IMG/VR virus record: IMGVR_UViG_3300044675_000762
Coordinates: 1-23,611 of that record
DNA from: a virus
Direction: 5' to 3' (one strand)
Length of the DNA stretch: 23,611 bases
Position 1 is the stretch's first letter, and each line of letters starts with the position of its first letter. Below are positions 100-9,142 of this stretch, in pieces. The translations under genes were made by a program, and so were the position numbers. The notes beneath the pieces were generated by a model that was given only the letters and a program-made list of their open reading frames with translations, was not told where the DNA came from and did not search any database.

Positions 100-1416
100 T
101 CAAAATACACTTACTTGAAATCTTGGTAAATATTCAAAGAACATTCTCATAGCCAAACAATCACTAAAATCAGGAGAACGACCTATCGCTGCTTTAACTT
201 TATCTTTAGGAATTACTCCTTTTTTCATATCGTTATCTACTGACTTTTGTTTGACTTGTTCTAGTTCCTGAATGATAATTTGTTTTTGTTTCCCATCTGC
301 TTGTATGTAAAGTTCTGCTTTGTTTACCATATCTGCTAATTTAAAATAGCATTGAGACTTTAGGTTATCAAAGTTTTCCTTTTGTCTTGTTACAGGGTTT
401 ACTAATGGAGAACTATTATTGACAAAGCCTTTACACCTAAGAATATCTACAACTCCACCTCCTACTCCATCCTCATCGCAAACAATGTTAGATGTAGGTA
501 CTTTATGCTCTGTTGCAAAGTTGTTTATAAGTTCAGCGACCTCAACAACTGATTTACCATTGAATTGATAAAACCTAACGCGAAAGCCACTCCATATACC
601 AATAACAGTACTATCATTCCCAAAACGTGCCACATCACAAGTAATAAAAGAATCACCAATAGGAACAAACGTATTGGTAAAAGAATCAAGTATTTTATCA
701 TAGTCTATAAGTTGTGCAGGGTCATCTAAGTATTCCCAGTTACCAAATAAAAGCCTCTCCTTTGATACACTATCCAAAGTTAGTAAGTTCTCTTTGTAGT
801 GCTTAGATATGTAAGGATTGTCATCTATCAGGGAAGTTATAAATCTTTTATTCTTAGATATTGTGCCTTCTTGCTCTGGCTTATAGAATTCTGAGTAGGT
901 CCAGTTCTTTGCTGGGTTACAAGTGTAAAGAATCTTAGGCACTAAATCGTTTTGGTCTAGTTGAAATCTTATCCTTGATTTAATAATGTTTCTAGCCTTG
1001 TCATCTACTTGGTTAGCCTCATCAATAAACGCATCTGTAATCTCTAATGAACCTAATTCATCAAAGTTAGGGTCTGAAGGATAGGAGTAAAGGTCTTTTA
1101 GGAGGATAGTAGAACCATTAGGAAATTCTATTGTAGAAGATTGAGCATTGAATTTAAAATGCTTGTTGGCTTCTAGCCCTTGCATTTTAGCTATCTGAAA
1201 GAAGGATACTAAGGTAGTTTCTTTTAGGGTTTTTAACACGGCTCTCCCAATAAGTCCTCTTGTATTGGGATATTTTAATCGCATCTTTAATTGCCAATAA
1301 CACCCCAAAGCTGTTTTTCCCCCGCCTCAACCTGCCCCGCCTCCGAAAAGAACCTCGTTTGTGCGAGTATCTTCAAGAAGGTCAAGGGCAGTAGTTTGTT
1401 TTATTGATAGTTCCAT
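100..1416 (-). CDS. terL: Terminase large subunit, interrupted by an in-frame TGA at codon 30
   Basis: This is the ATPase/nuclease of the packaging motor. From the ATG at 1416 the frame reads 29 residues ending FGGGAG, meets TGA at 1329-1327, then continues in the same frame with GGGKT and about 400 further residues. Walker B is FIDEA near residue 130. The RNase H-like nuclease has Asp in TCDVARFGND (about 261), Asp in NIVCDEDG (about 314) and GRSPDFSD (about 410-419). Everything after the stop looks intact and full length. The only open start after the stop is a TTG at 1308, which would make a protein without the P-loop and hence no working motor. Deleting six bases around the stop gives FGGGAGGGKT. 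Either this is an error or mutation, or the stop is bypassed in translation. TerS lies upstream, the portal start downstream. Confidence 0.9.
1312..1347 (-). other. Walker A region with embedded stop; candidate recoding or error site
   Basis: Minus-strand codons 24-35 read F G G G A G stop G G G K T. A GGT codon (1332-1330) precedes TGA (1329-1327) and GGC (1326-1324) follows it. The stretch is a sharp GC spike in an AT-rich genome, with several runs of two to five G on the coding strand. It could fold as a weak G-quadruplex, and it is also the kind of sequence where base calls go wrong. The GGAGG inside it resembles a Shine-Dalgarno sequence. Confidence 0.6.
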
Positions 1417-1423
1417 AATTGAT

Positions 1424-1486
1424 ATTCGTAGTATTCGTAGTATTCGTAGTAGTCGTAGTAAGTACGAGTGCTACGAGTAGTACGAG
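1424..1486. repeat. Array of seven 9-bp units in the TerS-TerL gap
   Basis: The plus strand reads ATTCGTAGT three times (1424, 1433, 1442), then AGTCGTAGT (1451), AAGTACGAG (1460), TGCTACGAG (1469) and TAGTACGAG (1478). The first four units share CGTAGT and the last three share TACGAG; CGTA and TACG make the two halves partly inverted, so the array can fold back on itself. It fills almost the whole space between the TerS stop (1488) and the TerL ATG (1416). Iterated sites near terS or terL are a common form of terminase recognition site, which makes this a candidate pac/cos element. The function is inference. Confidence 0.75.
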
Positions 1487-1487
1487 G

Positions 1488-1835
1488 CTATATACTTCCT
1501 TTCTTTTCTACATAGGTTTTTTTCTCCTCCCAATTTATTTGCAGTCCTCCTGATAGTTCTATCTCGTTGGTTTGTTTGGCTCTGCCTTCTAGTCTATCAA
1601 GAATCTCTTGATAAGCACGAATGTCAGATTTCATTGCCTTCGCAATTATCTTCATATCTAATTGTTCGGCTATTGTAAATTCCTCATCTTCTCCTGTAAC
1701 TGGGTTACGCACTTTGGTAACTAATTGCAGTAAACGAAGTAATCTTGTTTTACTATGTTCAACTCCTTTAGGTTTACCTGCTGGATTGCCAGATACTCCT
1801 TTTGGGAATGGTGTTAAATTTTGTTCGTTAGCCAT
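1488..1835 (-). CDS. terS: Terminase small subunit candidate, DUF5681-like
   Basis: A 115-residue protein with the N-terminal signature FPKGVSGNPAGKPKG (about residues 10-24), characteristic of the DUF5681 family, whose members often sit beside terL. The rest is charged and helical. It would bind the packaging start site and hand DNA to TerL. It begins 23 bases after the ParB-like gene and is followed by the 9-bp repeat array and TerL. The TerS role comes from this signature plus position; no structure-based signature is visible. An alternative is a general phage DNA-binding protein. Confidence 0.7.
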   Translation of the reverse strand: MANEQNLTPFPKGVSGNPAGKPKGVEHSKTRLLRLLQLVTKVRNPVTGEDEEFTIAEQLDMKIIAKAMKSDIRAYQEILDRLEGRAKQTNEIELSGGLQINWEEKKTYVEKKGSI

Positions 1836-1857
1836 ATATCACTGAATTTTCACTGAA

Positions 1858-2286
1858 TTACAAAGTTACACCACAATTAGGACAAGTCTTGCCACCTTTG
1901 GCATTATCCTTTGGTTGTTCTATATCGTTATTAGCAAAAGCTGGTATGTCTAAACCCCATTCATCTAGTTCTATAATGTTCCATTCATTAGCTAAAGAAT
2001 CCCAGTCGTGTTCACCAAATGATATATTATCCTTGATAATAAATTCTTTCTTTTGTGCTTCGGTTAGATTGTTAGCGTGTATTACAGGAACATCAGTTAA
2101 CCCAGCCTCAAGACAAGCCTTTAGCCTCATATTGCCACCTAAGACCATATTGTTCTCATCTATTACAATAGGTCTAAGTTCTAGCATTTGTGGGAAGTCT
2201 TGAATAGACTTTACAAGTTGCTTAAACTTATGGTCTTTAATTAATCTAGGATTATTAGGATTTGATTTTAATTCGTTAATCTTCAT
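1858..2286 (-). CDS. ParB/Srx-fold domain protein
   Basis: A 142-residue protein with the ParB N-terminal nuclease-like fold: LKSNPNNPR at about 6-14, then VLGGNMRLKA at 48-57, the G-G-x-R-x-x-A box that binds nucleotide in ParB-like proteins, followed by DVPVI. The C-terminus ends CPNCGVTL, half of a zinc finger. In many phages this domain is fused to a DNA methyltransferase; here it stands alone with no methyltransferase next to it. Its position just before TerS suggests a role at packaging or in DNA modification. Its ATG overlaps the end of a 35-aa membrane peptide gene. The fold is confident, the job unknown. Confidence 0.75.
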   Translation of the reverse strand: MKINELKSNPNNPRLIKDHKFKQLVKSIQDFPQMLELRPIVIDENNMVLGGNMRLKACLEAGLTDVPVIHANNLTEAQKKEFIIKDNISFGEHDWDSLANEWNIIELDEWGLDIPAFANNDIEQPKDNAKGGKTCPNCGVTL

Positions 2287-2383
2287 TATTTATATCCTTT
2301 TTTTTATTTTTATCAATTAAATAAACCCATATTGCTGATAATATCATTGATACTAAAATTGATATAATAGGTATTATTAGCAT
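2276..2383 (-). CDS. 35-aa single-span membrane peptide
   Basis: ATG at 2383, TAA at 2278-2276. The product starts MLIIPIISILVSMILSAI, a hydrophobic span of about 22 residues, then a short charged tail of Lys and Asp. It overlaps the ParB-like gene start by 11 bases and the preceding 40-aa basic gene by 7 bases, so it fits the overlapping layout of this operon. I do not recognise a family. The membrane span is clear; that it is expressed is inferred from its tight placement. Confidence 0.5.
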   Translation of the reverse strand: MLIIPIISILVSMILSAIWVYLIDKNKKKDINNED

Positions 2384-2499
2384 CTGCCTTGTCTGTTATA
2401 AGGTTTAGTAGGTTTGTCTTTAGGACCAGATGTCTTTTTAGCCTTTCCTTTTTTTCTTGACCCAAAGGAAACCTTGCCATTAGGATTTAGTTTCGCCAT
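2377..2499 (-). CDS. 40-aa lysine-rich basic protein
   Basis: ATG at 2499, TAA at 2379-2377. It starts MAKLNPNGKVSFGSRKKGK and continues with many Lys, Pro and Gly residues and a C-terminal RQGRC. The strong positive charge and lack of hydrophobic core suggest an unstructured nucleic-acid-binding peptide. It overlaps the last 20 bases of the NinG-like gene and the first bases of the 35-aa membrane peptide gene, as expected for translationally coupled phage genes. The family is unknown to me. Confidence 0.55.
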   Translation of the reverse strand: MAKLNPNGKVSFGSRKKGKAKKTSGPKDKPTKPYNRQGRC

Positions 2500-2863
2500 A
2501 CTTTTCGTTTATTTCGTTTAACTCGGTTCTAGTCCATTTCTTTATAAGTCTTGACTGACTTTCTAAGTGTAATACCATTCTTTCTCCTATCTTATCTATT
2601 AGGTTTTTTCGGTAACCTATTAGGTGGAATTGGTCAAATCCATTACAAGCCTTGCACTCTCCGTTTACATTGTATTCATCAAATCTTAAAGCTGAACTAT
2701 TCTTGACAGGCACATAATGACCTGCATCCATTTGGGAGGTATCTTTAGTAGAGCCACACGATATGCAAGTAAAGTAACCATTTTGACTATCTCTTTGTCG
2801 TATATAACGATTAAAAATTGTTTGTGTCTTTCCTGTAAGTTTTGGAATGGTTTGTAATGCCAT
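2480..2863 (-). CDS. ninG: NinG/Rap-like recombination nuclease
   Basis: A 127-residue protein of the lambda NinG (Rap) family, structure-specific nucleases that act on recombination and Holliday-junction intermediates. Seen: CISCG (Cys33, Cys36), DAGHY (His49), then CKACN (Cys70, Cys73), the zinc-binding HNH-like core, followed by a helical C-terminus. The length is shorter than lambda NinG, as is usual for Bacteroidetes versions. It belongs with the ERF single-strand annealing protein further up the same operon: ERF would make the joints and NinG resolve them, which also matters for making concatemers for packaging. Confidence 0.85.
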   Translation of the reverse strand: MALQTIPKLTGKTQTIFNRYIRQRDSQNGYFTCISCGSTKDTSQMDAGHYVPVKNSSALRFDEYNVNGECKACNGFDQFHLIGYRKNLIDKIGERMVLHLESQSRLIKKWTRTELNEINEKYGETKS

Positions 2864-8394: not shown

Positions 8395-8576
8395 GCTTTA
8401 AGTAAGGCTTCATCTGGTCTTTCAATCTCCTTTACTACGATTCTATTGCCACCTCTTATCTTGGCTAACATCTTAGATACTGATTCTACTTCGCTTATCA
8501 TTTCTTGATACTTCTTAACTAACCAGCTTTCTTGTTCGCTTAAATTAAGTTTATTCCAATTCTTAGGCATCTTCAT
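8391..8576 (-). CDS. Hypothetical 61-aa helical protein
   Basis: A mostly helical protein (LSEQESWLVKKYQEMISEV, then VSKMLAKIRGG) with a short basic C-terminal segment. No family recognised. Its ATG overlaps the stop of the homing endonuclease gene (minus-strand ATGA) and its stop overlaps the ATG of the metalloprotease, so the three genes are translationally coupled. Confidence 0.6.
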   Translation of the reverse strand: MKMPKNWNKLNLSEQESWLVKKYQEMISEVESVSKMLAKIRGGNRIVVKEIERPDEALLKA

Positions 8577-9142
8577 AGTTTTTTATATATTTTAAAATGA
8601 TAATCTTTATATGTTTTTAAATTGCCTCTTAAGTATTTTAATATTGAGCTTTGATGAATATTTAAAACCTTTGCACAATGACCTGAACCATCAAATTTAC
8701 CTAAAAATTCACCATTTTTATAAGCATTAATATAATATTTGAACGCACTTGCTTTATCCCCATTAATTTTAGATAACTTTTGTTTTGTATCTAATGAACG
8801 TTTTATACCAGTAGTTTTTATTGATATTTTTTTCTTTGTGCTTTCTTTACATATTTTACCTAATGCACCATCCCCCCCATTAGTCATATTAGATAAAGAA
8901 CCTGTCTTAATATCAATTCTACCATATAAACTTATAAATTCAATTTCCTTTTGACAAGCCTGTTCCCAAGTTAAATTGTCTGCAATTATTTCAATATCAT
9001 AATCTGTTTTATTGACTATTTGCTTCCAAATTACATTTCTAATGCTTTTTAAATATGCCCTTTTATAATTGTTAATTTTACCTATTCCAATATAAAATGG
9101 TTCATTCTTATCAAGCCTAATATGTCTATAAACATAAGCCAT
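8573..9142 (-). CDS. Free-standing GIY-YIG homing endonuclease
   Basis: A 189-residue protein with the GIY-YIG nuclease fold: VYRHI at 4-8 and FYIGIG at 16-21, a basic KRAYLKSIRN stretch, and Glu in QKEIEF (about 66-68) for metal binding. A NUMOD3-like basic segment lies at about 95-135 and a NUMOD1-like HTH at 140-185 (GSGHCAKVLNIHQSSILKYL). This is the layout of Seg-type phage homing endonucleases. The gene is visibly more AT-rich than its neighbours. It begins straight after the metallophosphoesterase stop, and its own stop overlaps the next ATG, so it fits the operon without a gap. No intron is evident. Confidence 0.9.
   Translation of the reverse strand: MAYVYRHIRLDKNEPFYIGIGKINNYKRAYLKSIRNVIWKQIVNKTDYDIEIIADNLTWEQACQKEIEFISLYGRIDIKTGSLSNMTNGGDGALGKICKESTKKKISIKTTGIKRSLDTKQKLSKINGDKASAFKYYINAYKNGEFLGKFDGSGHCAKVLNIHQSSILKYLRGNLKTYKDYHFKIYKKL

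Follow-up and report, generated by a model that had tools for sequence, protein, structure and literature searches.

The gene for the large terminase subunit (terL) of an IMG/VR virus record, which was analysed over its whole length of 23,611 nt (the window), is interrupted by a TGA inside the Walker A motif. The interruption is neither a sequencing error nor a dead gene. A programmed short ribosomal bypass ("stop-hopping") that is tied to homing is the best explanation and very probably the correct one; the bypass itself is inferred, and no protein or RNA data are at hand. An earlier note on this DNA had raised a Gly-to-Gly hop and rated it as not the likeliest reading. The hop is now the best-supported reading, based on recurrence, mixed insert lengths, selection and a stem-loop, and the low rating is not upheld.

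The interrupted terL gene of the window

The PHROG match of the gene is the terminase large subunit. On the minus strand, the start codon is followed by MELSIKQTTALDLLEDTRTNEVLFGGGAG and then by the TGA (Table 1), so that 29 codons ending in FGGGAG precede the stop in the codon context GGT|TGA|GGC. On its 3′ side the sequence GGC GGG GGA AAA ACA encodes GGGKT, and 405 open codons were counted from the lysine onward to the terminal TGA. This reading bears out what the earlier note had described, a TGA at codon 30 with the TerL frame intact on both sides, located at 1312-1347, which matches the Walker A segment from the Phe to the Thr codon. The deletion of six bases gives FGGGAGGGKT, as had also been stated, and this is identical to the product of the non-interrupted relatives. 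The peptide before the hop site is short (29 residues) and its sequence is constrained by TerL itself. No second terL was found in the window or in the other records searched whole, which gave one TerL match each (several of these records are fragments).

Table 1. Features of the terL region in the window.
Feature	Position	Strand	Basis or remark
terL, interrupted	100..1416	(-)	ATG at 1416, TGA at codon 30, stop TGA at 102-100; C-terminal part full-length
Walker A (P-loop) segment FGGGAG∗GGGKT	1312..1347	(-)	Phe codon to Thr codon
Proposed take-off codon GGT (Gly29)	1330..1332	(-)	Sequence
In-frame TGA directly after the take-off codon	1327..1329	(-)	Sequence
Proposed landing codon GGC, Gly not decoded twice	1324..1326	(-)	Inferred from codon matching across insert types
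Insert of six bases, TGAGGC, absent in canonical relatives	1324..1329	(-)	Comparison with relatives
Codon at which decoding would resume, GGG	1321..1323	(-)	Inferred
Stem-loop 5′ arm, terL codons about 9-18	1364..1391	(-)	Folding and covariation
Stem-loop 3′ arm, ends at first base of take-off codon	1332..1357	(-)	Folding and covariation
terS-terL spacer with ACTACGAAT repeats	1417..1487	(-)	HNH homing endonuclease gene here in sister alleles, absent in the window
Probable terS, upstream of terL	1488..1835	(-)	Inferred from position and FPKGVSGNPAGKPKG type sequence

Stop-led inserts in the TerL family of the window

For an unbiased set of relatives, the query against IMG/VR was restricted to the protein encoded after the stop, and the upstream DNA was read afterwards (n = 80). 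A stop-led insert at exactly this site was observed in 16 of the 80 TerLs; the other 64 lack it and encode FGGGAGGGKT. The inserts of the 16 are TGAGGC (11), TGAATAAGGT (3), TGAAGC (1) and TGAATGGT (1). No interruption was found at other positions of terL in the tblastn matches (402 residues, 80 relatives).

With exact and degenerate pattern scans, the set grew to 88 different alleles, of which 34 are interrupted and 54 canonical; new among the inserts were TGAAGGGC, TAACCAAAGC/TAACCAAGGC, TGAAAATTGC and one of 16 nt in L285. These scans inflate the proportion of 34 in 88, and 16 of 80 is the unbiased figure. Insert lengths of 6, 8, 10 and 16 nt were observed directly in this family. All interrupted sequences are from uncultured viruses. 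The comparison of TerL with its relatives, which the earlier note had suggested, shows the same six bases (TGAGGC) in 17 different terL sequences that come from many samples; they are not private to the window, and the miscall considered in that note can be set aside.

Purifying selection and codon matching

Both halves of the interrupted terL are under purifying selection. In groups with several members, pN/pS was 0.05-0.14 downstream of the insert; upstream it was 0.00-0.11, with the exception of 0.23 in one three-member group. It is not raised to about 1 in interrupted lineages, and synonymous differences reach up to 0.65-0.68 per site within groups sharing one frame-breaking insert. This strong selection on both sides of the insert speaks against a killed gene, another alternative of the earlier note.

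Codon matching was analyzed for 20 insert types in which skipping to the landing triplet restores the canonical P-loop length. These types are related within families and are not 20 independent origins, and the computed probability overstates their independence. Take-off codon and landing triplet stand for one and the same amino acid in 17 of the 20 types: eight have identical codons, and nine pairs differ only in the third base. The three mismatched landing triplets (AGC twice, TGC once) are one base off each. Both codons are pyrimidine-ending in all 20 types. The matching persists at sites with Ala codons (GCY to GCY). The differences in the third base speak against a simple duplication of the target, and by inference they fit the re-pairing of one G34 tRNA. 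In the window, the landing codon can pair with the same tRNA (GGT to GGC).

Several alleles do not fit a simple hop and are left without explanation. A strict hop would leave the P-loop one residue short for the TA inserts of L382/L441 and for the TA and TAAA inserts of the myophage-like family described below, and it would make the P-loop one residue too long in L282.

A stem-loop upstream of the interruption

A strong covarying stem-loop was found in every interrupted allele of the window family and in no canonical one. Its stem pairs terL codons 9-18 with codons of the P-loop. For the folded segment (87 nt, from the ATG to the codon after FGGGA), the mean minimum free energy was -29.7 kcal/mol in 20 distinct interrupted alleles, including L359, and -13.1 kcal/mol in 39 canonical ones, without overlap (p = 4e-10). 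Compared to synonymous-codon shuffles, the z-scores range from -1.3 to -6.0 in interrupted representatives, whereas their mean is +0.66 in canonical alleles. The GC content of 0.44 in interrupted versus 0.35 in canonical alleles explains a part of the energy gap, but not the shuffle scores or the covariation.

Compensatory changes at third-codon positions of the interrupted alleles were observed in columns 27-84 (U-A 10, A-U 5, C-G 4, G-U 1) and in columns 30-81 (C-G 11, A-U 7, U-G 1). This covariation was exceeded by none of 500 shuffles; the canonical alleles have no excess over shuffles. RNAalifold gave 15 pairs in interrupted alleles and none in canonical ones.

In the second TerL family (see below), the 5′ arm is nearly the reverse complement of the P-loop codons and is located about 109-126 nt upstream of the stop, where it lies upstream of the terL coding start or overlaps it. 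L251, L282, L331, L644, L651, L653 and L658 fold at -21 to -35 kcal/mol, compared to a canonical mean of -15.7 and a minimum of -23.6. L191 folds at -65 kcal/mol. Folding revealed no stem-loop in L382/L441, in L367/L345/L402/L362 and in most myophage-like alleles, and no excess of RNA structure was found downstream of the site.

Linkage to homing endonuclease genes

Within the window family, 10 of 32 interrupted alleles and none of 51 canonical ones have a homing endonuclease ORF whose end immediately precedes terL. In the second family, such a gene is located directly upstream of terL in 4 of 7 interrupted and 0 of 69 canonical alleles, and two of these four carriers (L644, L651) came from the protein search and not from the stop pattern. 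With both families pooled, an endonuclease gene adjoins terL in 14 of the 39 interrupted alleles and in none of the 120 canonical ones; related alleles in these counts are not independent. The endonuclease domains, assigned with Pfam and PHROGs, are NUMOD4/HNH_3, HNH_3, GIY-YIG and other endonuclease families.

In the alleles of group A, a shared tract takes in the HNH gene that separates terS from terL, the N-terminal part of terL and the insert. Over this tract the identity between phages is about 96-100%, compared to roughly 50-90% in the flanks, and synonymous divergence is 0.03 in the terL N-terminus versus 0.36 downstream. A co-conversion tract around the insert was thus observed directly. 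Beyond what the earlier note had described, the insert very probably travels in a mobile cassette linked to a homing endonuclease, and unrelated TerL families carry such inserts as well.

In the window, no endonuclease gene is located beside terL and the spacer has about 70 nt. We infer that the window has lost the endonuclease gene and kept the proposed hop element. Tandem ACTACGAAT-like repeats occupy the spacer, at the place where sister alleles hold the endonuclease gene. A free-standing GIY-YIG homing endonuclease gene (phrog_314) is encoded at 8573-9142 (-) of the window. In L394, a tRNA-like stretch (about 2080-2200, ending in GGTTCAAATCC...) was found between terS and terL of an interrupted allele; it was not called by ARAGORN.

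Interrupted P-loops in other TerL families

Inserts of 2, 4, 5, 6, 8 and 9 nt were identified in other, unrelated TerL families. The listed matches of the broad P-loop insert pattern were mostly noise, yet they revealed further TerL families. In the second, Bacteroidetes-phage-like family (alignment A1), 7 of 80 TerLs are interrupted, with the junctions GGT TAA GGC, GGG TA GGT, GGG TA GGA, GCT TA GCT, GCC TA GCT and GCC TA GCC. At its Ala-codon junctions (GCY to GCY), a hop one position earlier would still give FGGGAGGGKS. A PBSX-like family has the junctions GGT TA GGT AAG, GGT TAA GGT AAG and GGC TA GGT AAG. In a myophage-like family the junctions are GGC TA GCC and GGC TAAA GCN, and in the cultured relatives closest to it the motif GGAAGAGKS is uninterrupted. 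Four unrelated TerL families are a lower bound on the number of independent origins, and more origins within families are likely (no tree was used).

The TerLs of the cultured 11b, phi10:1, P12002L, BS-TP1, Pakpunavirus and PAK_P5 are all canonical. A pattern scan of genome contigs yielded no TerL-like match and no named bacterial host among the 120 matches listed. MT838643 and MW202627 only looked interrupted and were rejected; L284 and most of the out-of-family pattern matches were rejected as chance. L271, which has an isolate-style IMG identifier, carries a 21-nt in-frame P-loop insert with a TAG one codon after the Gly (about 1414-1463, minus strand), and a GIY-YIG endonuclease is encoded upstream of its terL (1627-2559, minus strand). 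It was kept as uncertain, outside the 20 insert types.

Proposed mechanism and alternative explanations

We propose that TGAGGC is a short programmed translational bypass element. With the ribosome at GGT (Gly29) and its A site at TGA, the peptidyl-tRNA-Gly would quit GGT and re-pair with GGC six bases downstream, and decoding would restart at GGG, which would give the canonical P-loop FGGGAGGGKT. By analogy with T4 gene 60, the stem-loop of the preceding codons may re-form behind the ribosome and probably drives the forward move. The insert would spread in a cassette with the endonuclease gene between terS and terL and the co-converted terL N-terminus, and it presumably destroys the endonuclease target, making the carrier immune. 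A disrupted target and an immune carrier have reportedly also been suggested for the T4 pair of mobA and gene 60. That a hop takes place, how efficient it is and where the endonuclease cleaves are all inferred.

In a wider sense, stop-hopping is probably a common natural mechanism. Mobile cassettes of an HNH or GIY-YIG endonuclease, an RNA stem-loop and a stop-led gap of 2-16 nt, which form a large class, would have settled in the TerL P-loop in several phage families that are not related to each other, and tRNA-Gly or tRNA-Ala would make the hops. The subclass with 2- and 4-nt gaps would need a decoding step that has not been described.

Compatible with this mechanism, the bypass may be real and still be only a by-product of endonuclease resistance that is tolerated because little TerL is needed, without any regulatory role. 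We lean slightly towards this idea. TerL is needed in few copies, the inserts are linked to endonucleases, and interrupted alleles without an endonuclease persist. A dedicated covarying stem-loop suggests, on the other hand, selection for efficient hopping, though it also fits the repair of a damaged essential gene.

An excision of the segment from the mRNA, with joining of the ends before translation, would cope with any insert length. Deleting TA or TAAA in the 2- and 4-nt cases would give exactly canonical P-loops, and the stem-loop adjoins the site. However, no machinery is known that would cut segments of 2-16 nt out of a phage mRNA, the loci tested gave no Rfam intron at the site, and the stop-first rule as well as the matched, pyrimidine-ending flanking codons would be left unexplained. 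Removal at the RNA level is therefore regarded as improbable.

Even less can be said for readthrough of the stop codon, which would make the P-loop two residues longer. The frame of the group A alleles is continuous across the TGA, but readthrough cannot be the general answer, because the 8-, 10- and 16-nt inserts of sister alleles shift the frame. Moreover, the P-loop length is constant among canonical alleles, and no tRNA gene was found in the window and none of suppressor type in the loci scanned. A dead terL or an assembly error, the usual meaning of a stop in an essential motif, is hardly conceivable with the same insert in many independent assemblies, a low pN/pS despite many synonymous changes, and a gene without another lesion, of which no second copy was found in the records searched whole.

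Comparison with known systems

Efficient translational bypassing has so far rested essentially on T4 gene 60, and in 2020 bypassing was still described as observed in T4 only (PMC7576135). The resemblance to gene 60 that the earlier note had pointed out also includes the 5′ stem-loop. In gene 60 and mobA of T4, as here, a Gly take-off codon is followed at once by a stop, the Gly landing codon is matched, a stem-loop lies on the 5′ side, and the insert is located in an essential ATPase gene with an HNH endonuclease gene directly 5′ (PMC5009743; PMC3014915). The bypass of gene 60 depends on the 5′ stem-loop, which is thought to act as a motor (PMC5009743). In contrast, the gap of T4 gene 60 has 50 nt compared to 2-16 nt here, where no gap hairpin is present, and the inserts described here are of many types, occupy the Walker A site of TerL in unrelated families and are accompanied by HNH as well as GIY-YIG endonucleases.

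Synthetic stop-hops, in which matched codons flank a stop and 9 nt are decoded as one amino acid (Weiss et al., 1987, as cited in PMC5009743), have direct counterparts in GGT TGA GGC of the window and GGT TAA GGT of L345, and the +5 hops in GGT TA GGT and GCT TA GCT. They were reporter constructs and not natural genes, and a 2016 review knew stop-hops from synthetic constructs only and no natural in-frame stop-hopping (PMC5009743). The same review mentions a possible bypass in the terminase of phiHau3, linked to UUA decoding of the host. We found that the gap of phiHau3 (L692, JX182369; about 2605-2630) lies in Walker A: KGWG(GGC) TTACTCC GGT AAG. It shares the Gly-to-Gly hop, an HNH gene upstream and a 5′ stem-loop (z -2.2), but its pause codon is the rare TTA without a stop, and it was attributed to UUA decoding and not to a deleterious insert. 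The phiHau3 bypass may belong to the stop-hop class rather than being a UUA adaptation. The byp elements of Magnusiomyces mitochondria are likewise short mobile blocks that are skipped in translation, with codon matches that are sometimes imperfect (PMC5009743), but they occur in an organelle with relaxed decoding and do not require a stop. No report of short stop-led hops in TerL P-loops was found in the literature searched (bioRxiv and most subscription papers were outside its scope).

If the interpretation is true, a one-off curiosity of T4 becomes a widespread mechanism across many unrelated bacterial viruses. Natural short hops that vary in gap, take-off codon and stem would allow a comparative test of the determinants of hopping, and in addition to introns and inteins they would be a third strategy by which selfish elements persist in the active site of an essential gene. 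Many phage packaging genes will be misread by annotation pipelines that label such genes as broken or truncated.

The P-loop of TerL is already known as a target of homing. Inteins occur there in mycobacteriophages (PMC5050341), a mini-intein-like sequence was found in L626 (about 1020-1780) between FGGAAG and SGKS at the same position as the inserts, and a group I intron lies within the TerL P-loop of Barbavirus, cultured phages of Rheinheimera (L482, MK719726; 2239-2458). These elements share the target site with the stop-hop inserts; however, protein or RNA splicing takes them out, for which the inserts described here are far too short. A group I intron at the insert was also considered and rejected, as the window, L050, L144, L251, L331, L612 and L644 gave no covariance-model match. 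The annotated terL of MK719726 begins after the P-loop and is hence truncated. In the myophage-like family, a group I intron (RF00028) was identified in terL about 92 codons past the P-loop, at 2097-2406 in L424, 602-906 in L409 and 952-1224 in L214.
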